NCBI RefSeq assembly: GCF_012641515.1
Contig: NZ_JABAHY010000020.1
Span: 1 to 42,237, forward strand
DNA from: Nesterenkonia sedimenti
GTDB lineage: Bacteria > Actinomycetota > Actinomycetes > Actinomycetales > Micrococcaceae
Length of the DNA stretch: 42,237 nucleotides
Reading direction: 5' to 3'
Shown here: positions 3-42,237 of the stretch, piece after piece
How positions within the stretch are numbered: position 1 is the stretch's first letter
Layout of the letters: each line of letters begins with the position of its first letter
The notes under the pieces: model-generated
What the model was told of the DNA's origin: nothing
Database searches by the model: none
Seen by the model: only the letters and a program-made list of their open reading frames with translations
Translations under genes and position numbers: made by a program

Positions 3-1028
3 GGGCTGCTGGAACTTATCGACTACGCCGACCGTGAGGGCGATTGGTCTCTGCGTCGGGCCGCGGCGGTGCTGGGTCTGGATCATGTGCGGGTGATCCG
101 CTGGCAGCACCGGGCCCAGGCTGGTCGGCTTGATGATGCCCCGCCCGGGCCGGATGAGGCGGCCCACGCGCTGCTGGCCGCTGAGCGGGAAGCGATCCTG
201 CAGATCGCAGAAGGCTGGGCTGAGATTGACCGGTCGCACCGAAAGCTGGCCCACCGTGGCTCCCGGCTTCAGGCCTTCTACGCTTCCGAGTCCACCGTGC
301 TGCGGGTCCTACGGGAAGCTGGCCTGCGACTTCCCGGACCCGCAGCCCGGGAACCGCTGGAGCCCCGCGCTTGGCCCGAATGGGCTGAACTGGTGCCAGG
401 GGTGATCATGATCTATGACTTCACCCATTTCACCCGCGCACACCGCTGCGTGGTCGCGGTGATCGACGTGATCTCCAAATATTGGCTAGCGACTGTGGTC
501 TCGGCTGAGGAGTCCTCCACCCAGGTCGAGGTCGCCTTCACCCGCGCGCTGGTCGCTGAGGGCAAAGAGCACCTGCTCGATGCCGACCTGCTCCAGGAGC
601 TGGCTACCGGGACTGTGCCAGATAATGATGAGCGGATCCCAGTACTGCTGGCGATCTCCGATAACGGACCCCAGATGACTTCGAAGGCCACTGCCTCGTT
701 CATGGCAGGTGCCCGGATCGCTCAGCACTTCGGCAGACCCGGAACCCCGAACGATCAATCCTGGGTCGAGTCCTTCTTCGGACACCTCAAAGCCGAGAAC
801 CCGCACCTTGAGAAGATCACCGAGCCCGGTGTACTTGAGTCCGAGCTGGACCGACTGCGGATTCACTACAACGCGGTGAGGTTGCACGAGGGCGTGGGCT
901 ACGTCACCCCAGAAGACGAACACTACGGCCGAGGCGAAGCAATCCGCGCCGCCCGCAGGGCCGGCCTGGTCAACGCTCGAGCCACTCGAATTGCTACAAG
1001 AAGGAGAACCCGGAAAGATCAATCATGA
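3..1028 (+). CDS. DDE-type transposase, 5' end cut by window edge
   Basis: This is the catalytic subunit of an insertion sequence of the IS3/IS481 type. The frame is open from base 3, so the true start lies before the window; a GTG at 69 is only the first start-like codon. An N-terminal helix-turn-helix-like part (DWSLRRAAAVLGLD) is followed by an rve/integrase core. The DDE triad is visible: Asp in IYDFTHF (417-419), Asp in ISDNGPQ (660-662) and Glu in SWVESFFGHLKAE (768-770). The last two are 35 residues apart, as is usual in these families. The stop at 1026-1028 is followed by about 55 bases that may hold the right end of the element (around 1066-1085, near ctctgacacacc); the left end is outside the window, so the exact family and boundary are unproven. 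Confidence 0.85.
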   Translation, partial: GLLELIDYADREGDWSLRRAAAVLGLDHVRVIRWQHRAQAGRLDDAPPGPDEAAHALLAAEREAILQIAEGWAEIDRSHRKLAHRGSRLQAFYASESTVLRVLREAGLRLPGPAAREPLEPRAWPEWAELVPGVIMIYDFTHFTRAHRCVVAVIDVISKYWLATVVSAEESSTQVEVAFTRALVAEGKEHLLDADLLQELATGTVPDNDERIPVLLAISDNGPQMTSKATASFMAGARIAQHFGRPGTPNDQSWVESFFGHLKAENPHLEKITEPGVLESELDRLRIHYNAVRLHEGVGYVTPEDEHYGRGEAIRAARRAGLVNARATRIATRRRTRKDQS

Positions 1029-1156
1029 GGCCCACTCGCTGGTTGGGTATTAAACCCGCTCACTGGTGCATTATCTCTGACACACCTCGGTCTACTTCCC
1101 CGGCCTGCACTCCTACGCAGGCCTTCCAGAATGATCCCTCGACGAGGAGAAAGGCT

Positions 1157-2476
1157 TTGGCAGACATGCGAAGTCGTATCACGAGCAAGAAGACGCTCTT
1201 GCTGCGCCATCTGGGCATGGCGAGCGTTTCGGGGCTGTTGGTCTATCTGTTCTACCTGTCGTATTCGGCTTGGGGGGTCCAGCCAGCACTGTGGCCGGAC
1301 TGGGGAGAGGACCATCCCTTCTGGCGAGCATGGGCACATGCTGCGTTCGTCCTGTTGTTCCTGACGTTGAGTCTCTCGCCCGCGTCGGCCTTCTGGAAGC
1401 CCGTCCAACGGTTGTTGCCGTGGCGGCGGGAACTCGGAATATGGTTCGCGGTACTGGCAGTAGGGCACGCCTACGCCATATGGGACCGTTGGGCGCGCGG
1501 GGACTTCGCAACGCTCTTCGGCTTCCAGTACGTGGAGGAGTTGGACAGATTCGTCCTGGCACGCGCCGAAGTCGGCATCATGAACATGATGGGGATGGTA
1601 ATGCTGCCCATGATCATCTTGCTGGCGGTGACCTCCTCCGACCGAGCTGTGAACTTCCTTGGAGCGTCGTCGTGGAAATGGATCCACCGGAGCCTGGTGC
1701 ACGTCATCTTCTACCTCGCCATGCTGCGTGGGACCCTATACTTCTTCTACTTCTTCCAGACGACCCCGCCCCAGTGGCAGGTCTACCCCTCGATCTGGTT
1801 CATGTACGTCTTCCTCGGCATGGGGGTCTTCGCGGTCTCGCTTCAAGCAGCCGCGTTCGCCAAGACCGTGCTCGGGCGGAAGCGCCAGCGGCGCGAGAGC
1901 GGGATGCTGACCGTTGCCGCAATCTCGGGTGTGGTCGCATTGATGGTCGCGCCTCTAGTGCTCATGCTGGGGACCGTAGCGTACTTCGACAGTCGCCTCC
2001 TCAAGGAGAACCCGCAGCTCACCGGCCAGGCGCAGACCCCACGAGAGGATGCCCAAACCCAAGTCCCTGACGAGTACGCACAGAGCTTCGAGATGGTCAT
2101 CGAGGTTGATGGCCAGCAGGACCGACTCTGGGTGAGGGACCTGGACGATGCACCCTCGTTCCGGCTCACCACCCAGATCGAAGGAACACCGGTCGCGGAC
2201 CAGATCTACCGGGTCGAGGAGCGAACCTTGTATGTCGCTGAGCAGGGCCCGGACTCGGAACTGACCTGGTCACGGACCGAGAACGTGGAGCCAGAAGACA
2301 TCGACCTCCCAGAGATGGTCTTGGAGCCAGGCGCGTGGGCCGCACAGTTCGGCCCGGGGGAACACCGGGTCCCGGGGCCGGAAGGTGAGCTGCAGGTCAC
2401 CATCCACAGCGTGGATGAGCCCATCGCCGAGGAGGTCTTCGAGATCCCCGAGGACGCAGACCCGGTATTGAGGTGA
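1157..2476 (+). CDS. Ferric reductase-like transmembrane protein
   Basis: This is a multi-pass membrane protein with a ferric-reductase-like (YedZ/MsrQ-type) heme-binding domain. Counting from the TTG at 1157, candidate heme-ligand histidines are H61, H104, H177 and H182, in WAHAAF, AVGHAY and IHRSLVHVIFY. Six or so hydrophobic segments cover residues 20-245. A further transmembrane segment near residues 255-280 leads into a soluble tail of about 150 residues rich in Asp and Glu, which I do not recognise. The frame is open back to an ATG at 1025 that overlaps the transposase stop, but a GAGGAG ribosome site at 1144-1149 fits TTG 1157 best; ATG 1166 is the alternative. No flavin- or NAD-binding domain is present, so an electron donor must be supplied by another protein. 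It sits between an insertion sequence and the metS gene. Confidence 0.7.
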   Translation: MADMRSRITSKKTLLLRHLGMASVSGLLVYLFYLSYSAWGVQPALWPDWGEDHPFWRAWAHAAFVLLFLTLSLSPASAFWKPVQRLLPWRRELGIWFAVLAVGHAYAIWDRWARGDFATLFGFQYVEELDRFVLARAEVGIMNMMGMVMLPMIILLAVTSSDRAVNFLGASSWKWIHRSLVHVIFYLAMLRGTLYFFYFFQTTPPQWQVYPSIWFMYVFLGMGVFAVSLQAAAFAKTVLGRKRQRRESGMLTVAAISGVVALMVAPLVLMLGTVAYFDSRLLKENPQLTGQAQTPREDAQTQVPDEYAQSFEMVIEVDGQQDRLWVRDLDDAPSFRLTTQIEGTPVADQIYRVEERTLYVAEQGPDSELTWSRTENVEPEDIDLPEMVLEPGAWAAQFGPGEHRVPGPEGELQVTIHSVDEPIAEEVFEIPEDADPVLR

Positions 2477-2483
2477 TTCATCG

Positions 2484-2588
2484 ATGACTACCGCAGCGAT
2501 TGTGATGATGATCGTGGCTGTGGTGACGGTGTGGGGCGGCACGGTCGCCTCGATCATCCACCTCTCCCGGAACCCCGAAGAACCCTAA
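2484..2588 (+). CDS. metS: MetS-like small subunit of methionine/alanine NSS transporter
   Basis: This 34-residue single-span membrane peptide (MTTAAIVMMIVAVVTVWGG at its start, ending HLSRNPEEP) matches the MetS small subunit of sodium-dependent methionine/alanine importers (NSS family). In those systems MetS is encoded next to the large subunit MetP and is needed for transport. A strong GAGGTGA ribosome site at 2470-2476 overlaps the upstream stop codon, seven bases before the ATG. The gene ends 19 bases before lgt. No MetP is present between the transposase and this gene, so it is an orphan here unless MetP lies before base 1 or elsewhere in the genome. Confidence 0.75.
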   Translation: MTTAAIVMMIVAVVTVWGGTVASIIHLSRNPEEP

Positions 2589-2607
2589 GCAAGGAGACGC
2601 ACCCGAT

Positions 2608-3630
2608 ATGTTTGCCGCCATGATTTCTGCCGGATTCCCCTCCCCGCCGATGAACCACATCGACCTACCCGGCCCCTTCTCCATCGCCTTCTATTCCCTG
2701 GCAATCCTGCTGGGCATCGCCCTGGCAGTGGTGGTCGCCACCCGGCTGTGGAAGTCCCGCGGAGGCGACGGCGACGACATTCTCTCCGCCGCACTCTGGG
2801 CAGTGGTCTTCGGTATCATTGGCGCCCGGATCTACCACGTCATCAGCTCTCCCGACGCCTACTTCGGCGAAGGCGGAGACCTGCTGCGCACCGTCCAGAT
2901 CTGGCAGGGCGGCCTCAGCATCATCGGTGCCGTGGCCGCCGGCTCGGTGGCCGTGTGGATCTTCTGCCGGCGCAACGGCATCAAATTCGGCGCCTTCGCT
3001 GACGCGATCGTGCCCGGAGTCATCCTGGCTCAGGCGATCGGCCGCTGGGGAAACTGGTTCAACCAGGAGCTCTACGGCGGCCCCACCACCCTGCCCTGGG
3101 GCCTGCAGATCGACACCGACCAGCCGCACCAAGCGCTGCCTCCCGGCGCCAGCGAATTCACCACATTCCACCCCACCTTCCTCTACGAATCACTGTGGAA
3201 CCTGCTGGGATTCATTGCACTGGTCTGGCTCTATAAGCGCTTCCAGTTCAAACAGGGCCTGCTGGCCTGGACCTATGTGGCCTACTACATGATGGGTCGT
3301 TTCTGGATCGAATCGATGCGCCGCGACGAGCCCGATAAGAGCACCCAGTTCCCCTTGGAGTTCATCGGCCTGGACTGGAGGCTGAACCAGATCGTCGCCT
3401 TCGTCGTCTTCCTGATCGCCATCGCCGCTCTGATCTGGCTCTTCAGCCGCCGCCCGCGGACTGATGAGGCGTTGGCCGAGGAGCTGGAGATCCACACCCC
3501 GGCCTCTGAGCAGCGCAACCCTGTTGCGGGGCACAAAGTCGACCAGGACGCCCTGAAGGGGACGCCCGAAACCGACCCCAGTGGATCAGATTCTGAGACG
3601 GGGGGCGGTCAATTCCGGTCCAAGAAATGA
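2608..3630 (+). CDS. lgt: Prolipoprotein diacylglyceryl transferase
   Basis: Lgt attaches diacylglycerol from phosphatidylglycerol to the lipobox cysteine of prolipoproteins in the plasma membrane. The 340-residue protein has about seven transmembrane segments and the family signature GRWGNWFNQELYGG at residues 145-158, plus IGARIYHVI and the C-terminal segment MMGRFWIESMRRDEP with the conserved arginines. The acidic tail after residue 290 is variable and typical of actinobacterial versions. An AAGGAG site at 2591-2596 supports ATG 2608. Its stop overlaps the ATG of a gltB remnant (ATGA), which preserves the lgt-gltB order that I recall from related genomes. Confidence 0.95.
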   Translation: MFAAMISAGFPSPPMNHIDLPGPFSIAFYSLAILLGIALAVVVATRLWKSRGGDGDDILSAALWAVVFGIIGARIYHVISSPDAYFGEGGDLLRTVQIWQGGLSIIGAVAAGSVAVWIFCRRNGIKFGAFADAIVPGVILAQAIGRWGNWFNQELYGGPTTLPWGLQIDTDQPHQALPPGASEFTTFHPTFLYESLWNLLGFIALVWLYKRFQFKQGLLAWTYVAYYMMGRFWIESMRRDEPDKSTQFPLEFIGLDWRLNQIVAFVVFLIAIAALIWLFSRRPRTDEALAEELEIHTPASEQRNPVAGHKVDQDALKGTPETDPSGSDSETGGGQFRSKK

Positions 3631-3706
3631 GACGTGAACCGACGAAATCTGCACCCGGTTCGCCGCGTTCCCGGAGAAGGCTGGTCTCTACGACCCGCTC
3701 AATGAG
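3627..3706 (+). pseudogene. gltB: 5' remnant of glutamate synthase large subunit
   Basis: The ATG at 3627 overlaps the lgt stop. About 15 codons on, in a shifted frame, the sequence reads FAAFPEKAGLYDPLNE, the characteristic start of the GltB glutaminase domain, where HDACGV should follow. Adding one G in the run at 3657-3658 joins the two frames into MRREPTKSAPG followed by FAAFPEKAG. The similarity stops at 3706 and a TAG follows at once. The rest of gltB and gltD are absent from this place, so this is the edge of a deletion or replacement. The identification rests on recognising a short but distinctive motif. Confidence 0.6.
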
Positions 3707-4124
3707 TAGGCACACCCGCCCGTCGCCGCAGCCCGGATAGACTGTGGGAAGTCTCTTCCAGGCTCCCCAGCACGAGGAAACTGAGCAGGACACCGTACAA
3801 CGGCAGGTGTCCCAGAAACTCGGTCGCCCCAAAGAGCGCCAGCGTCGCGGTGAACGGCACGGCCATCAGGATCGCAACCACCTGCGGCAGAGCGCCGGAG
3901 ATGACGAGCAGCCCCAACAAAAGCTCGACGGACCCGGCAACCACCGCGAAGGCGTCGGCGCTTACCCCGAACGGGGCAAGGAGATTGAGGAGCGGTTCCT
4001 GCTCGAGCATAGCCCGCGCCATCTCTGGATTCGCCAGCTTCTCCACGATGGCCAGGGAAATGAGGGTTACGCCCGCGCCAAGCTTGAGACCGAACGTCGC
4101 CCGGCTAAGGTGGTCGTATTCATG
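3699..4124 (-). pseudogene. C-terminal fragment of a DoxX-type membrane protein
   Basis: The translated fragment (HEYDHLSRATFGLKLG at its start, then EKLANPEMARAMLEQEP, GSVELLLGLLVISGALPQ and ATEFLGHLPLYG) resembles the C-terminal third of a long DoxX-family membrane protein found in actinobacteria. Four hydrophobic segments remain. The frame is open to 4172, where an in-frame stop lies upstream, but has no ATG; a GTG at 4046 in the middle of a conserved helix is the only usable start. I therefore read it as 5'-truncated. Its 3' end overlaps the gltB remnant, and its broken 5' end faces the broken end of a metallopeptidase gene. Confidence 0.6.
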
Positions 4125-4656: not shown

Positions 4657-6882
4657 GTGAAACACCGTCGCAATCTCGCGGTGGCGGCCGTGACCGCCGT
4701 CGTGGTGACTACAGCGCTTGTCGGGACGACTCTGCCCGACCTGGTCGCTGACCGGACAGGTGACGCCGTCGCCGAACAGTCCGAGAGCGAGCAGAACCTC
4801 GCCGACAACTTCGTTGTCACCGAGCTGCCGGACACCCCCTCTGCCAAAGAGATCGCCACTGCCAAAGAGTCCGATCAGGCACGGGAGAAGCTGATGGCAG
4901 ATATTGCCGGACGCATCAACCAAGCCAGTGAGCGCGCCAATGAGCTTGAGTCCGAGCTGCAGCGCCAGCAGTCCCTGGCCGCCTCCCGCATGGCAGAAGC
5001 CGCAGAGGCCGCCGAAGCCGCCGAGCAGGCCACGCTGGAAGCAGAGGCCGCTCTGGCCATGGACGCCTACGATGACTATCAGGAGGAGGACTCCTCCGCG
5101 GCCGATGTGCTGCTGGGCGATGAGGGCACCCTCGCCGAGGATGCGACAGACCAGCAGCGCGAGGAGCAGGCTGAGCAGGCCGCCGTCGAGGCCGAACAGG
5201 CCGCACGAGAGGCCGAGGCCGAGCGTGAGCGCGCCGAAGCCGCCGCCCAGGAGACCGCCGAGGACCTAGAGAACCTTGGTGAGGGCACTGCAGAGACCCG
5301 CGCCTCCCAGCAGGAGGTCGGTGCGAACCTGCGCGAGCAGCTGGAAGCACTGCGGGACCTTGAGGGTTGGGAGGGAAGCTTCGAAAGCTTCCTGGAGAAC
5401 TTCCTGGGCAATGCTGACTTCCTCGATGAGGACGGTGAGATCGACGAAGAGCAGCTGGCCTACCGGATCCAGCAGCTGCGCGCCGACGCCGAGCAGACTC
5501 AGGTGACCGCAGCAGCCGCTGAAGCTGCCGACTTCGACTCACTGACTGAAGAGCAGCGCGAGCTGCTGGCCGCCGGCGCAGAGGTGGACGGCGTTGACAG
5601 CGTGCGCGACTACTACGAGTTGGTGCTGGACAACTCCAACTTCACCAGCTCCACCGGAGCCGTCAACTGGGATGCTGTCGCCGCCCATGTGGACCACCTG
5701 GAGTCGCAGGCCGAAGCGGACGAGACGGAACAGGAAGAGCCCAGTGCGGCGCCATCCCCGTCATCGACTCCAAGTCCCAGCGCGACCCCAAGCCCCACCG
5801 AGACTCCGAGCCCCAGCGCCACACCGACACGGAGCGCCACTTCCAGCACCGCCTCGAACCAGAGTTCACCGGCGAGCTTCGACTCCCTCAGCTCAGCACA
5901 GCGCGAGCTGCTGGCTGAGGCCGGTGAGCTGGAGAGCGGCAGCAACGCCGAGGACTACTACCGGATGGTGCTGGACAACTCCAACTTCACCACCAGCGGC
6001 GGCTCCGTCAACTGGACCGTGCTGGAGGGCCACCTCTCCTACCTGCAGGCCCAGGAAGAAGCAGAGGAGCAAGCCGAGGAGGAGGCCGAGGCTGCTCCGA
6101 GCCTCTCACCGACTCCCTCGCCGTCGCAGTCGTCCTCTCCTTCACGGGCTGCCACGCAGCAGTCCTCCACCCCGTCGATTCCGTCCTGGGGAAACCTCTC
6201 CAGCTCCATGCAGAGCCTGCTGAGCACCGGCGCGGAGCTGGAGCCGGGCTTCAGCGGCAGCGGCGGTGACTATTACCGGGCAGTGCTGAACAACCCAGAC
6301 CTGACCACCGGTGACGGTCGAGTCTCGCAGAACGCTCTGCAGTGGCACGTGAACTACTTGGAGAGCCAGAACACCTCAAGCTCCAGGTCAAGCTCCGGCT
6401 CGAGCTCCTCTTCTTCACCGAGCCCGACCCAGTCGGCCACTCCCACCCCGACTCAGACCCCGACGCCGACCCCCACTCCGACCCAGACGCAGACTCAGAC
6501 TGCTAACCCGCAGCCTGCCAGCGGCGGTGGGAGTAATGCCGCGCAGATCGCAATGGACTGGGCGGTCAACACCGCCAACCGTTCGGACACTTATTACCGG
6601 CTGGGCGGCAATGGCCCTAACGCTTGGGACTGCTCCAGCTTTACTCAGGCAGCCTATGCTGCGGCTGGAGTGAGCCTTGGGCGGACTACCTATGATCAGA
6701 TCACCCAGGGACGCCAGGTGCCTTGGGATGAGCGTCAGCCCGGTGACCTGATCTTCTGGGGCGACTACCACATGGCTATCTACCTGGGCGACGGACGAAT
6801 CGCCGATGCCGGCTCCCCCTCCTCCGGTGTGACCGTGCGCAGCATCTTCGGCTCGCCCACCAGCGTGCGAAGGGTGACCTGA
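4657..6882 (+). CDS. Secreted NlpC/P60 peptidoglycan endopeptidase with triple repeat
   Basis: This 741-residue exported cell-wall hydrolase is expected to cut peptidoglycan stem peptides. A signal peptide or anchor covers residues 1-40. An Ala/Glu-rich coiled coil follows (about 45-235). Three copies of a 60-residue module lie at about 293-351, 408-466 and 511-571, with the pattern F-x-S-L-x3-Q-x2-L, then DYY-x2-VL-x-N and W-x3-x2-H-x2-YLESQ. They are joined by Ser/Pro/Thr linkers. The C-terminal NlpC/P60 domain (628-741) has Cys659 in WDCSSFTQAAY and His705 in YHMAIYLGDG. A GTG start is preceded by a GAGGAA site. The coiled coil plus C-terminal NlpC/P60 plan resembles RipA-type daughter-cell separation enzymes. 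The middle modules may bind wall polymers or partners; this is unproven. Confidence 0.88.
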   Translation: MKHRRNLAVAAVTAVVVTTALVGTTLPDLVADRTGDAVAEQSESEQNLADNFVVTELPDTPSAKEIATAKESDQAREKLMADIAGRINQASERANELESELQRQQSLAASRMAEAAEAAEAAEQATLEAEAALAMDAYDDYQEEDSSAADVLLGDEGTLAEDATDQQREEQAEQAAVEAEQAAREAEAERERAEAAAQETAEDLENLGEGTAETRASQQEVGANLREQLEALRDLEGWEGSFESFLENFLGNADFLDEDGEIDEEQLAYRIQQLRADAEQTQVTAAAAEAADFDSLTEEQRELLAAGAEVDGVDSVRDYYELVLDNSNFTSSTGAVNWDAVAAHVDHLESQAEADETEQEEPSAAPSPSSTPSPSATPSPTETPSPSATPTRSATSSTASNQSSPASFDSLSSAQRELLAEAGELESGSNAEDYYRMVLDNSNFTTSGGSVNWTVLEGHLSYLQAQEEAEEQAEEEAEAAPSLSPTPSPSQSSSPSRAATQQSSTPSIPSWGNLSSSMQSLLSTGAELEPGFSGSGGDYYRAVLNNPDLTTGDGRVSQNALQWHVNYLESQNTSSSRSSSGSSSSSSPSPTQSATPTPTQTPTPTPTPTQTQTQTANPQPASGGGSNAAQIAMDWAVNTANRSDTYYRLGGNGPNAWDCSSFTQAAYAAAGVSLGRTTYDQITQGRQVPWDERQPGDLIFWGDYHMAIYLGDGRIADAGSPSSGVTVRSIFGSPTSVRRVT

Positions 6883-6950
6883 CCCTGAGCCATCCGGCTA
6901 CGCTCCAGCGGTAGGGAGCCCAGCCTGAATAACTGAATATCTCACTGGTT

Positions 6951-6981
6951 GATGCCCCCGGTTTCGGACGCCGGGGGCATC
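6951..6981 (+). terminator. Hairpin terminator after NlpC/P60 gene
   Basis: GATGCCCCCGG (6951-6961) pairs perfectly with CCGGGGGCATC (6971-6981) around a nine-base loop, 69 bases after the stop codon. There is no T-tract, as is common for terminators of high-GC bacteria. Confidence 0.7.
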
Positions 6982-7356
6982 ACTCGTTGACGTAAACTTC
7001 TGTCGATGGTTCGAATTTTCGTGGGCGGCTACATCGGCGTTCTGGCCATCAAGTTTTACGCCGACTACCAACGCTAAGGCGAGCAGGTCCCGTCACGTGG
7101 GACGCCAACATCGTGACCATCTGATGGCAATGAACCTCGTGGTGGCCACGACCATAGCGATGGTCAGCGTCAACACATGGACCTGGTCCAGGAGAACTTG
7201 GGAGGCCCCAGCCCGACGTCGCCCTGATGCTCGCCGCATGCGGATGCGGGTCCGTGATCGTCTCCATGGATACACCGGCGCTGTTGGAGCGCATACCGGA
7301 TCGTCGTCATGCTCACCAGGCCTGCCCGTATCGCTTCTTCCTGACGTCGTTGACGT
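6982..7356. other. Stretch without a recognisable gene
   Basis: No open frame here looks like a real protein. A 23-codon frame at 7006-7077 is too short to judge. The arms CCATAGCG/CGATGG around 7150-7165 give only weak structure. I see no tRNA and no inverted repeat that would mark an insertion-sequence end. Together with the low-confidence frame that follows, it separates the cell-wall gene from the metal island. Confidence 0.5.
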
Positions 7357-7713
7357 GTGAGTCGCCGGGACACGACAGTGGGCAGCACTACTCGCGGCAA
7401 GGCTCCTCACCGGCGCGACTCCCTCACCGATCCTCATCCCGCCAGCGCGACCGCTGCCTCGCAACAGCATCGAGCTGAGCAGACTTTGCTGCTCGTCGCG
7501 CAGTCCTCGCTGGTACAGGCCTGTTTTCTTCTGACCTGCCCGCTGGCCGGCGCTTTCGGTGCCGCCATCGGCTTACCAGTAGTCGCTCTTCTCAGCTGCG
7601 CTTGGCGCGACCGACGCCGGGCAAGCCGCATTATTTGGGGGAGACGCTCCCACGCTGAACATTCTGCGAGGCGAAAGACTCCCCGGCACTCCAGAGGTTC
7701 ACGCTCCTCATGA
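7357..7713 (+). CDS. Possible hypothetical membrane protein
   Basis: This 118-residue frame opens with a GTG. It has a hydrophilic Arg/Ser/Thr-rich first half, then two hydrophobic stretches (LLLVAQSSLVQACFLL and AGAFGAAIGLPVVALLSC, about residues 44-82), then a strongly basic tail. That layout would suit a small membrane protein with cytoplasmic ends. I do not recognise it, see no clear ribosome site, and the basic, Arg/Ser-rich composition is what random high-GC frames look like. Confidence 0.25.
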   Translation: MSRRDTTVGSTTRGKAPHRRDSLTDPHPASATAASQQHRAEQTLLLVAQSSLVQACFLLTCPLAGAFGAAIGLPVVALLSCAWRDRRRASRIIWGRRSHAEHSARRKTPRHSRGSRSS

Positions 7714-7844
7714 TCTACATGCGGAGGTGAACTGCCATAACCATCCCTTCGACAGAGGGGGGACCCGAGGGCAGAGACAAATTACCGCGAGGGACAGTAG
7801 GCTCAAGAATCACAGCAGCAGTTCGAGTACACCGAGGGGGAGCC

Positions 7845-8728
7845 ATGGACTCAGCCAAACAGGACAGGGTCAAGAACGAGGTCGGTTCATCGCAGCGTTA
7901 GATCAAAGCGGGGGCAGCACACCGAAAGATTTGAAACTCTACGGAATCGAGGCGGAGGCCTATCCCAACCAGGAAGTGATGCTCGACCTAGTGCACGAGA
8001 TGCGGACCCGGATCATCACAAGCCCAAGCTTCGATGGTGCCCGCATCCTCGGGGCTATCCTGTTCGAAGACACGATGAACCGTTACATCGAAGGAACCCC
8101 CACGGGGGATTACCTCTGGGACGTCAAGGGCATCGTGCCGTTCCTTAAGATCGACAAGGGCCTGGCTGAAGAATCACACGGAGCTCAGGTGATGAAGCCC
8201 ATCCCTGACCTAAACAACCTGCTCAAGAGTGCGATCAGCAAAGGAATGTTCGGCACCAAAATGCGTTCGCTCATCAAAGAGCCAGGGGAGGGGCTCCACG
8301 CTGTGGTCGCGCAGCAATTCGCGATCGCTCAACAGATCCTCCAGTTCGGTTTGGTTCCTATTGTTGAGCCGGAGGTCGATATCCATAGCCCCCGAAAGGC
8401 TGAGACGGAGAAGCAGCTCAAAGCGGCACTCCAAAGCGAATTGGACCATCTCGGCGAGGACCAGTCAGTCATCCTCAAACTGACGCTTCCCGAAGTCGAG
8501 AACCTCTACCACGAGCTCGTAGAGCACCCACGGGTGCTCCGGGTGCTGGCATTATCCGGCGGCTACTCCCGAGCCGAAGCCACTGCTCGCTTGGCACGCC
8601 ACCAGGGAGTCATTGCCAGTTTCTCACGCGCTCTGACCGAGGGACTCACCGTCACCCAGAGCGACGACGACTTCGACGTTGCCCTGGGTGAAGCAGCTGA
8701 AACAATTACGGACGCCTCGCGCACCTGA
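7845..8728 (+). CDS. fda: Class I fructose-bisphosphate aldolase, frameshifted near N-terminus
   Basis: This is a Schiff-base (metal-independent) aldolase of the Staphylococcus type, splitting fructose-1,6-bisphosphate into two triose phosphates. The ATG at 7845 follows a GAGGGGGAG site and reads MDSAKQDRVKNE. The rest (FIAALDQSGGSTPKDLK onward) is in another frame from about 7880. Adding one G at 7880-7881 joins them as VKNEGRFIAALDQSGG and gives 294 residues, the family's usual size. It also places the catalytic Glu of IVEPEVD at 175 and the Schiff-base Lys of ILKLTLPE at 212, the positions used in the staphylococcal enzyme. The downstream frame runs back to a GTG at 7727, but that extension has no similarity. 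The gene converges on a type II GAPDH gene. As written it would make no full-length enzyme from the natural start. Confidence 0.85.
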
Positions 8729-8784
8729 CCTCGAAGTCTGGGATCAATCTCGTCCTGCCCGTGTGGTGAGGTTTGTTGTTTGAG

Positions 8785-9828
8785 CTAATCGGTGGCCGTA
8801 AAGTCGGCGCGCACCCCTAGAGCACGATCGGTGCGCCGGATGGATTCTGCGCCGTCCTCCACGGTCCCAGCTAATGCGCGGATGGCGTCGATGTTCTCGG
8901 GGGTCACGATGGCCTGGTTATCGATTGTGTACGTCCAGAACAGTTCATTGCCCTGCACGGTCAAGATGTCTTCCCAGATGGCGACCTCGTACATGTCGCC
9001 GCGGGGCCTGCCCAGATCCTGCATCAGCTCCACGGTGCTGTTGACCGCAACAACCCCGTCCGAACGTTTCACGAAAGCGATCCGCGGCATCGCCTTTAAC
9101 GCCGCGAGGACCTCTTCTGCCTCTGCCGCACGGGTAAGCTCCACCGTCCAGAAGTGCAGATGATTCTGTGTGTGCGCTCCCTTGGCCGCCATCGTCACCA
9201 CGTCCAGATTGGGGACCACTGACTGGGCGTCCGGGCCCTGATGGCTGGGGATGCGGCCTTCGGGGACAACTGTGTTCATGATTCCCGAGTGATCGGATTC
9301 CCACGGGTCCGTGGCCCTCCGCACCAGCACGCCCCGGGCTTTGGACAGCAATTCGGCGTCCTGGAGCGCAGTCAGCGTGCGGACGGTAGCGGTGGTGTTG
9401 CACGAGACCACGCGAGTCGTATCCCGGCCCAACGTGGATTTGTAATTGGCGTGAGCGACGAAAGAGTGACCGGTGAGACTGTGCTTTTCCCCACCCTGGA
9501 AGACCGACTTGACGCCGAGGCTGCGATAGAGGTCTACGTTTGCGGCTCCGATGCCAGCCGGAGTGCAGTCGACGACGACGTCGACCTTGCCCAGCAGGTC
9601 CGACAGCCCGCCGACGAGGGGGTATCCCGCAGCCCGCATCTGCTGCCGGGCCTCGTCGGTTGAGGCATAGACCGGGATGCCTTTCGCAACCGCTGAGGCG
9701 ACCCGATAATCGGCGGTGACGTCGCTGACCCCGACCAGCTCCATGTCTTCCTGGGCTTCCACCGCGTCAGCTACACGCTTACCGATAACCCCGTAACCAT
9801 TGACAGCGACTTTGATCTTGTGTTCCAT
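8785..9828 (-). CDS. Type II (archaeal-type) glyceraldehyde-3-phosphate dehydrogenase
   Basis: This 347-residue oxidoreductase belongs to the archaeal-type GAPDH family, distinct from the usual bacterial GapA. It should oxidise glyceraldehyde-3-phosphate to 1,3-bisphosphoglycerate, often using either NAD or NADP. The N-terminal Rossmann motif is VNGYGVIGKRVADAV (residues 9-23). The catalytic Cys143 lies in VVSCNTTATVR. Further family segments are FQGGEKH, RATDPWESDHSGIMN and HFWTVEL. An AAAGGAAA site six bases before the ATG supports the start. It lies 246 bases downstream of csoR on the same strand, so it may be read from the copper promoter or have its own. The family is unusual in Actinobacteria, which suggests transfer. 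Confidence 0.88.
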   Translation of the reverse strand: MEHKIKVAVNGYGVIGKRVADAVEAQEDMELVGVSDVTADYRVASAVAKGIPVYASTDEARQQMRAAGYPLVGGLSDLLGKVDVVVDCTPAGIGAANVDLYRSLGVKSVFQGGEKHSLTGHSFVAHANYKSTLGRDTTRVVSCNTTATVRTLTALQDAELLSKARGVLVRRATDPWESDHSGIMNTVVPEGRIPSHQGPDAQSVVPNLDVVTMAAKGAHTQNHLHFWTVELTRAAEAEEVLAALKAMPRIAFVKRSDGVVAVNSTVELMQDLGRPRGDMYEVAIWEDILTVQGNELFWTYTIDNQAIVTPENIDAIRALAGTVEDGAESIRRTDRALGVRADFTATD

Positions 9829-10074
9829 AATCGATTTCCTTTCGAGAAAGTGGGCAGGGCGGTCGTGTCCCGGAACCGAGTGTCAGGTAGCGGGCCCTGT
9901 AGTCATGTCTAGCTTGCTTCTGGGCGGCCTAAGGTGACACCGCCAGGGATCGGTGCGCACTTGCAGGACAGGCTCCGAACTTTCCTAGCATGGTTGTCTG
10001 CAAGCCTGAAGTCTAAGGTCGAGATTTCGTTGGGCTTGATGGACGCTTTGAAGTTGGGCGACACAACAGTCGTT

Positions 10075-10386
10075 CTAGGATCGTACGAGGCGGGCGATGG
10101 CGTCGGAGGCTTCTTTGATCTTGGCTTCGGCTTCATCGCCATCATCCTGTACCGCTGAGACAACACAGTGTTTGAGGTGGTCATCGAGCAGGCCTAAGGC
10201 CACCTTCTCCAGCGCGGAGTTGATCGCACTGATCTGGGTGAGGATGTCTATGCAGTAGGTGTCCTCGTCGACCATCCGGTGGATGCCGCGGACTTGGCCT
10301 TCGATGCGCTTGAGGCGGGCGAGGTAGCGGTCCTTGTCGCTGATGTAACCGTGGCCTGCGGTGGGCGAGTCGGTCGTAGTGGTCAT
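10075..10386 (-). CDS. csoR: Copper-sensing transcriptional repressor CsoR
   Basis: CsoR is a four-helix repressor that leaves DNA when it binds Cu(I). The 103-residue protein carries the copper ligands Cys45, His70 and Cys74 in TYCIDIL and DDHLKHC. The C-x24-H-x3-C spacing is identical to that of the copper sensors, which separates it from formaldehyde (FrmR) and nickel (RcnR) relatives. The N-terminal segment RYLARLKRIEGQVRGIHRM is the conserved DNA-facing helix. It starts 41 bases after the CopB ATPase gene on the same strand and probably shares its transcript, giving autoregulation. Confidence 0.92.
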   Translation of the reverse strand: MTTTTDSPTAGHGYISDKDRYLARLKRIEGQVRGIHRMVDEDTYCIDILTQISAINSALEKVALGLLDDHLKHCVVSAVQDDGDEAEAKIKEASDAIARLVRS

Positions 10387-10427
10387 TCTGGTTTTCTCCT
10401 GCTTTGGTGTGGGCTTTTTCTCCGGCG

Positions 10428-12623
10428 CTAGACCCGGTCGAGGATTCGGTCGGTGCTGGCCTGCGGAGTGAGGTCAAGGCGGCGCAGCAGCTGAGCATTC
10501 AGGGCCACCACGACGGTGGAGGCCGACATCAGGATCGCGCCGACGCTCATCGGCAGCACGAACCCGATCGGAGCCAACACGCCGGCGGCCAGCGGCACCG
10601 CAGCGATGTTGTAGCCGGCAGCCCACCACAGGTTCTGCTTCATCTTCCGGTAGCTGGCCCGGGAGAGCTCGAAGATTGAGAGCACCGAGCGCGGATCGGA
10701 ACTGGCCAGGATCACCCCGGCTGAGCCGATGGCCACATCGGTGCCGGCACCGATGGCGATACCCACGTCAGCTTGCGCCAGAGCCGGGGCATCGTTGACG
10801 CCGTCGCCGACCATGGCCACCTTCTTGCCCTCGTCCTGCAGTTCAGCAACCTTGGCGGCCTTGTCCTCCGGCCGGACTCCGGCGAAGACCCGGTCGATGC
10901 CAAGGTCCTTGGCCACGGTCTCTGCCACCGCCTGGGCGTCTCCGGTGATCATCACCACCTGCACCCCGCGGGCATGCAGGGCGTCGACCGCATCGCGGGA
11001 CTCGGGACGGATCTCATCGGCCAGCCGCAGCGCGCCGATGACCTCACCATCAGCCAGGACGTGCAGAATGATCGCGCCCTGCTCGCGCCACTGCTCGGCG
11101 ACCGAGAGCTCCTTCTGGTCATGGGTCTCCAGCAGGTAGGGGCCGCCGACCTCCACCACTGTTCCATCAACGGTGGCTTTGACGCCCACCGCTGGGGAGG
11201 AGGAGAAGTCGGTGGCTTTGGGCACGTCCAGGCCGCGGGTACCGGCAGCTGCCACGATGGCCCAGGCCAAGGGGTGCTCACTGTCAGACTCAGCGGCTGC
11301 GGCCAGGGCCAGCACGTCGTCGTCGTGATGGCTTCCCACCGGGTGAACACCGGTGACGGTGGGCTCCCCCTTGGTCAGGGTGCCGGTCTTGTCGAAGAGG
11401 ACCGAGTCCACGGTGCGCATGGATTCCAGCGCCAGGCGGTCCTTGACCAGCACCCCTCCGCGAGCGGCACGTTCGGTGGCGATGGAGACCACCAGCGGGA
11501 TCGCCAGGCCCAAGGCGTGGGGGCAGGCGATGACCAGCACTGTGATGGTGCGCACCACTGCGGCATCGGGCATGCCGAGGAGAGCCCAGACCAGCGCGGT
11601 GATCAGGGCCGCGCCCAAGGCGAACCAGAACAGCCAGCCCGCAGCAGTGTCGGCGATGCGCTGGGCGCGGGAGGAGGAAGCCTGCGCATCGGCAACGAGC
11701 TTCTGGATACCTGCCAGGGCGGTGTCGTCGCCGGTGGCGGTGACTTCTACCCGCAGCCCGGAGTCGGTGGCCACAGTGCCTGCCACGACCTGGTCGCCGG
11801 TTCCGCGGCGCACCGTCTTGGACTCGCCGGTGACCATTGATTCATCCATCGACGCGCTGCCGTCGACGATTCTGCCGTCGGCCGGCACCGAGGAGCCGGG
11901 GCGCACGATCACCACGTCGCCGAGGACCAGATCGGCCGGAGCCACCTTAACGACGTCGTCGCCGTCGACCTTCTCGGCCTCATCAGGCAGCAGGGCCGCC
12001 AGGGAGTCCAGGGCGGAGGTGGTCTGAGCCAGGGATCTCATCTCAATCCAGTGGCCCAGCAGCATGATGACCACCAGCAGCGCCATCTCCCACCAGAAGT
12101 TCAGTTCATGGTCCAAGATGCCGAGGGTCGCGCCCCAGGAGGCGATGAACGCCACCGTGATAGCCAACCCGATCAGCAGCATCATGCCAGGGTTGCGGTC
12201 TCGTATTTCGCTGACCGCCCCGGTCAGGAACGGCTGGCCGCCCCAGATGTAAACGATCGTGCCCAGGATCGGGGATACCCACCACACCCACGCCGCATCG
12301 GGCAGCTGGTAGCCCAGCAGGTCGGCGAACATGGGGTTGAACGCCACCACCGGGGCCCCAAGGGCCAGCATGATCCAGAACAGCCGCCGGAACTGACCCA
12401 CATGATCGCCATGATCACCGTGACCGTGTCCTGAGTGTCCGCCATGTCCGGCGTGTCCACCATGTGCTTCATGACCAGCGTGATGCTCGCCTTCGTGCCC
12501 GTGGCCCTCATGGTCGTGCCCGTCGTGGCGGCTGTGTTCGTTGTGGTGGCCGTGGTGCCCACTGTGCTCGTGGTGCGCATCGTGGTCAGTTGCTTGCTGC
12601 GATCCTGTTGGGGGCTGACTCAT
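10428..12623 (-). CDS. copB: CopB-type P1B copper-exporting ATPase with His-rich N-terminus
   Basis: This 731-residue heavy-metal P-type ATPase pumps copper (or silver) out of the cytoplasm. In place of a CxxC metal-binding domain, the first 75 residues are almost half His with Gly, Asp and Glu. The transmembrane metal site is CPH (Cys367-His369 in VIACPHALGLAIPL), which marks the CopB (P1B-3, Cu2+/Ag+) group, not CopA with CPC. Other motifs are TGES, the phosphorylated Asp411 in DKTGTLTKG, SEHPLAWA, and GDGVNDAPALAQADVG. Eight transmembrane segments fit. A GAGGAGAAAG site precedes the ATG. It is the first gene of the copB-csoR-GAPDH series. Confidence 0.93.
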   Translation of the reverse strand: MSQPPTGSQQATDHDAHHEHSGHHGHHNEHSRHDGHDHEGHGHEGEHHAGHEAHGGHAGHGGHSGHGHGDHGDHVGQFRRLFWIMLALGAPVVAFNPMFADLLGYQLPDAAWVWWVSPILGTIVYIWGGQPFLTGAVSEIRDRNPGMMLLIGLAITVAFIASWGATLGILDHELNFWWEMALLVVIMLLGHWIEMRSLAQTTSALDSLAALLPDEAEKVDGDDVVKVAPADLVLGDVVIVRPGSSVPADGRIVDGSASMDESMVTGESKTVRRGTGDQVVAGTVATDSGLRVEVTATGDDTALAGIQKLVADAQASSSRAQRIADTAAGWLFWFALGAALITALVWALLGMPDAAVVRTITVLVIACPHALGLAIPLVVSIATERAARGGVLVKDRLALESMRTVDSVLFDKTGTLTKGEPTVTGVHPVGSHHDDDVLALAAAAESDSEHPLAWAIVAAAGTRGLDVPKATDFSSSPAVGVKATVDGTVVEVGGPYLLETHDQKELSVAEQWREQGAIILHVLADGEVIGALRLADEIRPESRDAVDALHARGVQVVMITGDAQAVAETVAKDLGIDRVFAGVRPEDKAAKVAELQDEGKKVAMVGDGVNDAPALAQADVGIAIGAGTDVAIGSAGVILASSDPRSVLSIFELSRASYRKMKQNLWWAAGYNIAAVPLAAGVLAPIGFVLPMSVGAILMSASTVVVALNAQLLRRLDLTPQASTDRILDRV

Positions 12624-12785
12624 ACTGCTTTCTCCTCACTCTTTCTCTCCTTAGCAGCTCTCGAACTTTGCCCAGTGGGCTGGTCTGAGAGTGTCCGGCG
12701 GAGAGGCCTTCAGCAGTCACGTTTCCCGATGAAAAGTGGGAATAGAGTGGGGCGAAGCCTCGATAGAGGCCGCATCCTCTGAACC

Positions 12786-12821
12786 TGCATAGCCTTACAT
12801 CCCCTTCAAATCAAGGGATGT
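12786..12821 (-). promoter_or_regulatory. Probable promoter and operator of copB-csoR
   Basis: On the minus strand, TTGATT (12814-12809) and TATGCA (12791-12786) are 17 bases apart, a fair vegetative promoter pointing at copB. The inverted repeat ACATCCC (12797-12803) / GGGATGT (12815-12821) brackets the -35 box, where a repressor such as CsoR would block polymerase. The sequence is G/C-tract-flanked like CsoR sites but does not match any one consensus closely. The leader to the copB ATG would be about 160 bases and contains no gene. Confidence 0.45.
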
Positions 12822-12904
12822 CTGACCCCAGACATGGAAGACGCGCGCAGAAGCAGTGAGGAGGGCTTCTGCAGGAGCCACGCTTCCCATCGCGCACTTT
12901 CCAT

Positions 12905-12920
12905 TAGAACACGTATTCTA
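12905..12920. promoter_or_regulatory. LexA-like palindrome upstream of pheS
   Basis: TAGAACACGTATTCTA is a 16-base near-palindrome with one mismatched pair. It resembles the Gram-positive SOS box (GAAC-N4-GTTC) with one departure (ATTC). It lies 141 bases before pheS, in the 437-base region between pheS and the divergent copB. Nothing else in 12,834-13,060 is recognisable. A role in SOS control of either gene is speculative. Confidence 0.25.
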
Positions 12921-13060
12921 GGGGGTGGCAAGGGTTCGTCCAGCGAAAATCAAAGATGTGTTCGAGTCTCTGTGCAGGGGAATCGGCTCCCAGAACGGAG
13001 GTTCGAAGGGCTGTGTCATGGAGTCGGCATCCACGCCCGCAACGGCATAAACTGAGCATC

Positions 13061-25217: not shown

Positions 25218-26203
25218 CGGAATCCACCCGCACCCGGCACTTCCTGAGCGACCTCGACCTCAGTGCCGCTGAGCTGGACGAGGTGCTCAACCTCGCCGAG
25301 AACCTCAAAGCCGATCCCTATGGACTCACCCCACTGGCCGGCCCCCAGACTGCTGCGGTGATATTCGATAAGACCTCCACCCGCACCCGGGTCTCCTTCG
25401 CCGCCGGAATCTCAGCCCTGGGCGGGGCGCCGCTGATCATCAACCCGGGGGAGTCTCAGCTGGGGCATAAGGAGTCGATCGCCGATTCCGCCCGGGTCCT
25501 GGAACGCCAGGTGAGCCTGATCATCTGGCGCACCTATGCCCAGTCCGGGCTTGAGGAGATGGCCCAGTACTCGAGAGTCCCAGTGATCAACGCACTCTCC
25601 GATGACTTCCACCCCTGCCAGCTTCTGGCCGACCTCATGACCATCCGTGAGCATAAGGGCCAGCTGGCCGGACTGAAACTGGCCTATCTCGGGGATGCGG
25701 CCAATAACATGGCCAATTCCTATCTCAGCGCCGGAGTCAACGCCGGTATGGATGTCCGGATCGCCGGACCCCAGGGACACCTGCCTTCAACCCGGGTCAT
25801 CACCGCAGCTGAGGACCGTGCCGCTGAGTCCGGCGGAAAGGTCACCGTCACCACTGATCCGGCCAAGGCATTGGCCGGGGCCGATGTCATCGCCACCGAT
25901 ACCTGGATCTCCATGGGACAGGAGGCTGAGAAAGAGCAGCGGATGACCCTCTTCGGCGACTATCAGGTCAACCAGACCTCCCTGCAGGCAGCAGCCGATG
26001 ACGCCATCGTGCTGCACTGCCTGCCGGCCTACCGGGGCGCAGAGATCAGCGCAGAGGTGCTCGACGGCCCCCAATCGGTGATCTGGGATGAGGCCGAGAA
26101 CCGTCTGCACGCACAGAAAGCCCTGATGACCTGGTTGCTGGTGGAATCCGGGCTGACCGATCAGAGCGCTGCCACAGCAGTGCGGGAGGCCTGCCGAGGA
26201 TGA
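25214..26203 (+). CDS. argF: Ornithine carbamoyltransferase
   Basis: This enzyme makes citrulline from ornithine and carbamoyl phosphate. The 329-residue protein has the carbamoyl-phosphate motif STRTR (residues 55-59), the HPCQLLADLMT segment, the ornithine-binding DTWISMGQE, and the HCLPAYRG loop. A GTG start overlaps the argD stop, and the stop overlaps argR (ATGA). These overlaps make argBDFR one tightly coupled unit. Confidence 0.95.
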   Translation: MTESTRTRHFLSDLDLSAAELDEVLNLAENLKADPYGLTPLAGPQTAAVIFDKTSTRTRVSFAAGISALGGAPLIINPGESQLGHKESIADSARVLERQVSLIIWRTYAQSGLEEMAQYSRVPVINALSDDFHPCQLLADLMTIREHKGQLAGLKLAYLGDAANNMANSYLSAGVNAGMDVRIAGPQGHLPSTRVITAAEDRAAESGGKVTVTTDPAKALAGADVIATDTWISMGQEAEKEQRMTLFGDYQVNQTSLQAAADDAIVLHCLPAYRGAEISAEVLDGPQSVIWDEAENRLHAQKALMTWLLVESGLTDQSAATAVREACRG

Positions 26204-26697
26204 CCCCGACAACCAAGACTGCCCGCCACGCCAAGATCCGGGAACTGATCTCCCGATCCTCCATCCGCTCCCAGGCCGAACTGGCCGCCAGACTAAGCGA
26301 AGAAGGGGTCAAGGTCACCCAGGGCACCCTCTCGCGTGATCTGGTGGAGCTGGGGGCGGCCCGGGTGCGCTCAGCAGAGGGCGGACTCATCTACGCAGTC
26401 CCCGCCGAAGGGCATGAACGGGAGTTCCAGGCAGATATCTCAGAGACCACGACAGCGAAGCTCAGTTCACTGTGCCGGGACCTGCTGATATCGGCCGAGG
26501 CCAGCGCGAATCTGGTCGTACTGCGCACCCCACCAGGAGCAGCCCAATTCCTGGCCAGCGCAGTGGATCATGCCGGACTGCAGAGCGTGCTGGGTACTAT
26601 CGCAGGAGATGACACCATCATGCTGATCACCGCCGAACCCGACGGGGGAGCAGCAGTCGCAGAGCGGTTCAACGGATTCGCTGAAGGCAGGGGCTAG
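26200..26697 (+). CDS. argR: Arginine repressor
   Basis: The 165-residue ArgR has an N-terminal winged helix (recognition segment VTQGTLSRDLVELGAARV) and a C-terminal domain for hexamer formation and arginine binding (GAAQFLASAVDHAGL, then GTIAGDDTIMLIT with the two Asp that hold arginine). It is expected to repress the promoters before argC and argG, whose paired boxes match each other. Confidence 0.94.
   Translation: MTPTTKTARHAKIRELISRSSIRSQAELAARLSEEGVKVTQGTLSRDLVELGAARVRSAEGGLIYAVPAEGHEREFQADISETTTAKLSSLCRDLLISAEASANLVVLRTPPGAAQFLASAVDHAGLQSVLGTIAGDDTIMLITAEPDGGAAVAERFNGFAEGRG

Positions 26698-42168: not shown

Positions 42169-42237
<69 letters not shown>

Follow-up and report, generated by a model that had tools for sequence, protein, structure and literature searches.

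Genes for the type II (archaeal-type) glyceraldehyde-3-phosphate dehydrogenase (GAPDH-II) cluster in bacteria with genes for CPx metal ATPases, and this clustering exceeds chance by two different controls. The case that we followed lies in a copper island of Nesterenkonia sedimenti, on contig NZ_JABAHY010000020.1 of assembly GCF_012641515.1, where GAPDH-II stands behind a CopB-type copper ATPase and a CsoR-type repressor. The contig, G000:C13 in our numbering of a 3.11 Mb genome in 64 contigs, was analyzed over its whole length of 42,237 nucleotides and is called the window below. Our preferred reading, to which we give about an even chance, is that GAPDH-II is horizontally moved cargo of copper islands and backs up a carbon metabolism that is poisoned by copper.

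Profile searches placed CopB, the CsoR-type repressor and GAPDH-II in that order on the minus strand, just as the first-pass annotation of this DNA had read them. The CopB-type P1B copper ATPase (10428..12623, 731 residues) matched Pfam E1-E2_ATPase with 164 bits and TIGR01511 with 567 bits against a cut-off of 397. By its CPH motif, its His-rich N terminus with up to 24 His per 60 residues, and its lack of an HMA domain (a simple pattern scan found no HMA-like CxxC) it is assigned to the CopB (P1B-3) ATPases, and transport is predicted. A second CopB, 88% identical to the one in the window, was found at G000:C45:178593-180743; the contig that carries it has no GAPDH-II gene. The repressor (10075..10386, minus strand, 103 residues) follows 41 bp after CopB. 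The best of three models was NF052430 (RicR), and the score of 148 bits fell below its curated cut-off of 175, so the protein is best classed with the CsoR superfamily and formally not as RicR. Cys, His and Cys are the copper-ligand fingerprint of CsoR/RicR repressors, and the translation, judged by eye, shows DTYC and HLKHC, that is the C and HxxxC residues.

The GAPDH-II gene (8785..9828, minus strand, 347 residues) begins 246 bp after the repressor gene. The protein scored 452 bits with NF003251 and 348 bits with TIGR01546, in both cases at full length and above the curated cut-offs of 185 and 232.9 bits. Its relatives in the PDB, 2czc and 1cf2, aligned over nearly the full length and have the SCNTT motif in common with it. 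This motif holds the catalytic Cys143, and a phosphorylating enzyme is predicted. GAPDH-II has two cysteines in all, and the second Cys found four residues on in GapA of the same genome (SCTTNC) is absent. A search of the genome found two type I GAPDHs (C1:153768 and C1:376861) and one class II aldolase (C23:184124), none with a CPx ATPase in its 20-kb surroundings. The island copies are thus extra isoenzymes. The first-pass annotation had proposed that they replace housekeeping enzymes of another family, a proposal that depended on the genome having a further GAPDH and aldolase; it does have them, they are of other families, and the island enzymes are spare, not sole.

Linkage to metal ATPases was measured in two sets of 396 genomes, one drawn evenly from the order and the other from the phylum. 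GAPDH-II was found in 10 genomes of the former and 14 of the latter, counting the window's genome in each; three of the 14 had distant sequences (34–36%) and were set aside. Together the two draws gave 19 loci besides the window, 11 of which had at least 9 kb of sequence on both sides. A CPx ATPase lay no more than 9 kb from GAPDH-II in all 11 full-flank loci, in ten by motif and in one (L117) by tblastn, since its CPD motif had been missed by the first expression. The motif was of the copper type, CPH or CPC, in eight of the 11, and in the window itself a CPH ATPase lies 1.7 kb from GAPDH-II. Arbitrary 20-kb regions from nine carrier genomes served as one control and contained a CPx ATPase in 2/40 cases, with motif and tblastn in agreement. 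The second control consisted of regions around aldolase or type I GAPDH genes, with 0/18 by motif and 1/18 (L118) by a looser motif and tblastn. One-sided Fisher tests against 2/40 gave 5.4e-8 for 10/11, 1.6e-9 for 11/11 and 1.0e-5 for CPH or CPC only; the loci are related to one another, so these values are optimistic and no strict probabilities. Eight further loci from the even draws were cut by contig ends, and an ATPase was present in three (CPC in L116, CPD in L110 and L113), while none was seen in the available sequence of L105, L107, L109, L111 and L112.

A scan of named genomes gave 36 GAPDH-II loci. Among the 16 full-flank loci at 50% identity or more, 13 had an ATPase of the CPH or CPC type no more than 9 kb away. 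The exceptions were L029, L039 and L047; the archaeal locus L048, which is 43% identical and was not counted, had none either. The phyla with such an ATPase in reach are Actinomycetota, Acidobacteriota, Bacteroidota, Balneolota and, at 7–8 kb, Deinococcota. A Pfam tally covered 16 loci with 111 neighbor proteins; the ATPase domain was found in 13, second to its own HAD domain with 15, and Cu-oxidase domains in up to four. Plasmids carry the gene as well, in 36 records of which 25 are predicted to be conjugative or mobilizable. Ten close and two distant plasmid neighborhoods were examined; the seven close ones with full flanks divided into one with a CPC ATPase, four with CPD only and two with none. 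Around the two distant type II GAPDHs (~36%, on Bradyrhizobium and Streptomyces plasmids) the nearest 6 kb contained no gene for metal handling, so the association with copper seems to be a feature of this clade. CPD-type ATPases (with motifs such as CPDALGLATPT and CPDALALATPI) occur near GAPDH-II in L102-L104, L106, L108, L110, L113, L115, L117, L056, L058, L059, L061 and L062, at 1.2–8.6 kb in the eleven loci where the distance was measured, and we know of no described metal specificity for CPD.

Fuller versions of the island are found in other bacteria. In Corynebacterium comes one run of genes encodes, in this order, CcdA, TlpA, a multicopper oxidase, CueP, a response regulator, a kinase-like protein, an HMA protein and CopB, and it is followed by DUF305, GAPDH-II, a class I aldolase, a HAD-GH65 fusion, phosphoketolase and a four-helix copper-binding protein. 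Three genomes of another genus, g19, have the regulator, the kinase, CopB, DUF305, GAPDH-II and the aldolase in common. In these genomes (L099-L101) CopB, DUF305 and GAPDH-II share a strand, the first two with 4 bases in common and the third 55–59 bp further on; in Corynebacterium the same three genes, again on one strand, are separated by gaps of 52–91 and 87 bp. From these short same-strand gaps, GAPDH-II is probably part of the CopB transcription unit in both genera. A CsoR gene followed on the same strand by GAPDH at 118–368 bp was seen in the window, in N. salmonea and in L102-L104. Outside these groups, phosphoribosyl pyrophosphate (PRPP) synthetase and an archaeal-type thymidine/AMP phosphorylase accompany GAPDH-II in seven loci (five from Acidobacteriota, one from Balneolota and one on an Acidovorax plasmid), and in four of these the PRPP synthetase match ends 30–67 bp before the CopB match. 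Among the PRPP synthetase loci, L030, L032, L033, L035 and L040 have a CPH CopB, and L044 and L057 have another ATPase or none. A beta-CASP metallo-hydrolase also recurs in GAPDH-II neighborhoods (L029:15747-17075 and its kin), with models named aCPSF1 and Cas14 under cut-off. Since the clade travels elsewhere with copper ATPases, multicopper oxidases, phosphoketolase, a disaccharide phosphorylase and PRPP synthetase, the window can be viewed as holding a reduced version of a larger cassette of carbon metabolism linked to copper. The wider proposal is that a mobile cassette, present in five phyla or more, gives copper tolerance through duplicates of poisoned cytosolic enzymes encoded beside the copper pump (GAPDH-II for GapA, metal-independent class I aldolases of two families for the metal-dependent class II enzyme, and an extra PRPP synthetase for Prs), together with a phosphoketolase route to ATP that bypasses GAPDH. 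It is put forward tentatively, and we would sooner bet against it than for it.

The gene that converges on GAPDH-II encodes a class I fructose-bisphosphate aldolase (7845..8728, plus strand), with 433 bits for NF003784 against a cut-off of 392 and 2iqt as a relative in the PDB. The first-pass annotation was right about the family and the direction of this gene, but the enzyme is not intact, since the frame is broken near codon 14. From the natural start at 7845, translation meets a stop at 7899-7901 after just 18 residues; the frame that codes for the enzyme is open from 7727 to 8728 without the usual N terminus. The frame is shifted compared to the N. salmonea gene in L017, with which the surrounding 2.2 kb are 99.7% identical. 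An intact gene from a plausible start is present in L017 and lacking in the window. The break is either a real mutation or an assembly error, two cases that look the same in one assembly. Aldolases of the PF00274 type adjoin GAPDH-II in 11 loci, at 51–145 bp in ten and at 3.6 kb in L108. Eight are intact and three are broken, namely the one in the window and those of two Corynebacterium islands (L020 and L021); with these three copies broken, the aldolase looks dispensable and is hardly essential to the module. A second family of class I aldolase, of the DeoC type, was found near GAPDH-II in six loci, 118 bp away in L046 and at 7–8 kb both in L029 and in four copies from Meiothermus/Calidithermus that are nearly identical to one another. 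The two families together place a class I aldolase within 8 kb in 17 GAPDH-II loci. Queries with the class II aldolase and the type I GAPDHs of the window's genome had no match in any GAPDH-II locus. Two Croceicoccus plasmids hold GAPDH and aldolase ~16 and 22 kb apart.

The broken aldolases may also be taken to suggest that GAPDH-II and the aldolase are passengers, which hitchhike on an island selected for CopB and have no role in copper resistance. The patchy presence of GAPDH-II, in 10 of 396 genomes, would fit this explanation too, but we consider it improbable because of how the gene has evolved. The ratio of nonsynonymous to synonymous substitution rates was about 0.1 for GAPDH-II (0.08–0.13, compared to 0.14–0.32 for the aldolase), and the gene recurs across phyla beside ATPases that differ in being CPH, CPC or CPD. 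In a tree with six outside rows, the 55 bacterial GAPDH-II sequences formed one clade (98/92), in which the window GAPDH grouped with Corynebacterium (99/94) and next with genus g19 (100/99), across orders. Between the window and the islands of these two genera, GAPDH is 80–87% identical and CopB 62–63%; the nearest relatives of the window CopB include those of genomes without GAPDH-II (G291, for example, at 89%) and the second copy in its own genome. Similar GAPDHs beside dissimilar CopB lineages argue that the union was made more than once, and in Nesterenkonia the GAPDH-aldolase pair was joined to a different copper locus, a re-association with a second CopB lineage that also speaks against a mere passenger.

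If GAPDH-II does back up a copper-poisoned metabolism, the parts of the island could work together as follows. CopB would export copper from the cytosol and, judging by the family, would be controlled by the CsoR-type repressor. GAPDH-II, downstream on the same strand and probably co-expressed with CopB and CsoR, would take over when Cu(I) inactivates the type I GAPDH, and lower glycolysis could then continue. The aldolase would be a former partner enzyme that has no metal in its active site, here either non-functional or the victim of a sequencing error. Phosphoketolase yields acetyl phosphate without GAPDH, and where the gene is present it may supply a bypass. No phosphoketolase was found in the genome searched, so this part of the scheme is missing in Nesterenkonia sedimenti. 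In Staphylococcus aureus, copper targets have been described among the same enzymes, and the Fda of this species is a class I aldolase. Cu(I) is reported to bind and inhibit the S. aureus GapA (PMC6350627), in agreement with what the first-pass annotation said of copper and GAPDH, and in one medium Fda was up 2.2–2.3-fold under copper. A second report (PMC10249872) states that Prs is inhibited by Cu(I) in vitro, that its activity drops in copper-grown cells and that an extra dosage of prs improved growth with copper. The dosage effect is a precedent for a spare copy that helps even when it is not insensitive.

Several observations weigh against this reading. The catalytic cysteine is kept in all 55 bacterial rows of the GAPDH-II clade, so copper tolerance does not follow from the family, and the second Cys of GapA is likewise missing from the genome's second type I GAPDH (SCTTNA). 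In L107 (G016:C343, a short contig) the coding sequence of the type II GAPDH falls into two separate frames. Of the 11 linked aldolase copies three are broken, the Corynebacterium mucifaciens locus (L018) has none, and where a PF00274 aldolase occurs, GAPDH adjoins it in only 4 of 21 genomes in the order sample and in 2 of 42 plasmid records, both from Corynebacterium. The proposed conservation of the linkage across genomes holds for GAPDH-II and CPx ATPases, with 11/11 evenly drawn full-flank loci and recurrence in five phyla, and is weaker for the aldolase. A search for an operator shared by CopB and GAPDH found none. CopB was present in at least 180 of 396 genomes (E <= 1e-150, a lower bound since two candidates were scored per genome) compared to 10/396 for GAPDH-II; in the genomes sampled, a metal ATPase can be predicted from GAPDH-II, and the converse is not true. 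The full-flank loci L108, L115, L117, L056, L058, L059 and L061 have a CPD ATPase only. Two points come from S. aureus, where Fda fell a little under copper, to 0.9, in the other of two media (PMC6350627), and where the enzyme changes are, according to PMC10249872, no direct response of CsoR, for which copAZ and copBL alone are known targets. The suggestion of the first-pass annotation that the module keeps glycolysis running under copper stress is therefore upheld in part: the linkage, the spare isoenzymes and the targets in the literature speak for it, and the broken aldolase and the retained catalytic cysteine against it.

Two further observations of this kind also favor another explanation. 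Five full-flank loci (L029, L039, L047, L057 and L060) have no CPx ATPase within 9 kb, and neighborhoods outside the Actinomycetota are rich in genes that are not related to copper: AarF, CFA synthase, patatin and glgP, with pfkA and cytochromes as well in Pseudomonadota, Deinococcota and Bacteroidota. Such loci could be general energy-stress islands, cassettes for low energy or low oxygen that combine GAPDH-II, phosphoketolase, sugar phosphorylases, pfkA, PRPP synthetase and lipid-modifying genes, and in which copper ATPases ride along because islands of this type accumulate resistance genes. We regard this as a real though rather doubtful alternative. It leaves unexplained why the ATPase is the commonest neighbor family in the scanned sample and lies near in every evenly drawn full-flank locus, why GAPDH would share a transcription unit with CopB in Corynebacterium and genus g19, as it probably does, and why GAPDH in C. 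comes stands amid the response regulator/kinase pair, CueP and the multicopper oxidase.

The copper island in the window is bordered by signs of transfer. At the left edge lies a transposase of the IS3/IS481 type (69..1028, plus strand; Pfam rve and rve_3; NF033516 with 91 bits, below the cut-off of 160). It is followed in the transferred segment, all on the plus strand, by a ferric-reductase-like membrane protein (1025..2476; Pfam Ferric_reduct with 27.5 bits, just under the cut-off of 28), an Lgt-type prolipoprotein diacylglyceryl transferase (2608..3630; Pfam LGT with 233 bits) and an NlpC/P60 peptidase (4657..6882; Pfam NLPC_P60), the DNA of which is 93–99% identical in N. salmonea L017. 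The N. salmonea contig G781:C119 is 99.0% identical to window positions 1095-4105 and L017 is 98.9% identical to 6110-11001, with 93–94% between the two stretches, and the GAPDH encoded in L017 is the same over all 347 residues (100%). The pheS-pheT genes beside the island are just 77–84% identical across three Nesterenkonia genomes (78–84% for pheS by itself), so with island DNA at ~99% it is most likely that the island moved recently between Nesterenkonia species, or into both from a third. The junction between island and pheS (12641..12968, no strand assigned) has a homologue in N. salmonea, where it precedes a tyrosine integrase gene, with 83% identity to L186 and 92% over 164 bp to L185, and it may be an insertion site. 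The integrase (PF00589) is encoded at L186:13869-15095, ~11 kb from pheS. The integrase stretch near pheS (L186:13545-15095) also has UmuC-like and UvrA-like genes.

A box of the form CATCCCTTN6ARGGG occurs twice, ~180 bp upstream of CopB (12802..12820, minus strand) and 85 bp upstream of the aldolase ATG (7742-7760, plus strand); the 3.1 Mb genome contains no further exact match. It was considered as a shared CsoR operator and set aside, because the pattern was derived from its own two sites. With two mismatches allowed, the window had 3 matches compared to 2.59 expected. The CopB-side box lies inside the integrase-linked element; an altered copy is found in N. salmonea and an intact one in G071, a genome without CopB at E <= 1e-150. 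As the pattern is self-derived and the copy at 12802 belongs to this element, a role for the box is doubtful. A search for palindromes upstream of the window GAPDH found nothing, scans for promoters and terminators gave little more than expected by chance (2 hits against 1.0 and 4 against 3.5, respectively), and Rfam at gathering scores had no match inside the island. Elsewhere in the window, ~17 kb off, an MFS transporter (26705-27943) lies between argCJBDF (plus an open reading frame at 26200-26697) and argG, and no ArsJ-named model was among its NCBIfam matches. At its right end (42170-42237) the contig runs 68 positions into a 16S rRNA gene, the probable cause of the break there.

Copper resistance is commonly described in terms of efflux, oxidation and sequestration. 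If GAPDH-II backs up poisoned carbon metabolism, then target replacement and bypass would join efflux and oxidation as one more means of resistance, and the islands would point, independently of the work in S. aureus, to the Cu(I) targets that limit growth under copper in nature. The linkage suggests a function for the bacterial clade of archaeal-type GAPDHs, for which no stated role was found in the literature searched, and the Nesterenkonia island offers a concrete case of what is most likely recent interspecies transfer. Among the papers listed by searches of the open PMC literature, which leaves subscription journals and preprints outside, none was listed as describing type II GAPDH in copper islands, in line with the first-pass annotation, which knew of none for this exact combination.

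A GAPDH gene in a metal-resistance locus also calls to mind arsenate detoxification, in which an extra GAPDH makes 1-arseno-3-phosphoglycerate for export by ArsJ. The known ArsJ partners are type I GAPDHs, so the family differs here, and the genes nearby are for copper instead of arsenic. In the GAPDH-ArsJ operons, for which such a locus is reported as the signature (PMC9601151), a metal-resistance island has likewise taken up a GAPDH gene. The ten annotated plasmid neighborhoods contain no gene named ArsJ (from an incomplete gene table), and neither an MFS gene nor ArsJ was found among the scanned island proteins of the window, which makes an arsenate function very improbable.

A parallel in principle is target duplication, the resistance strategy of carrying spare, drug-insensitive enzymes. 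The copper islands would follow the same logic of a spare enzyme, but with a metal ion as the poison, central carbon metabolism as its target and an insensitivity that is hypothetical. To our knowledge the copB loci of S. aureus and Listeria contain no glycolytic isoenzymes, whereas the island described here includes type II GAPDH and an aldolase. Those loci are reported to be horizontally transferred and have the mobile CopB-type exporter in common with it (PMC10233261). The steps duplicated on the islands include the reported Cu(I) targets GapA and Prs (PMC6350627 and PMC10249872); S. aureus adjusts the expression of its own enzymes, whereas the islands bring additional copies. The archaeal type II GAPDHs (2czc and 1cf2) belong to the same family, and the bacterial sequences stand separate from them and mostly in the context of metal islands.

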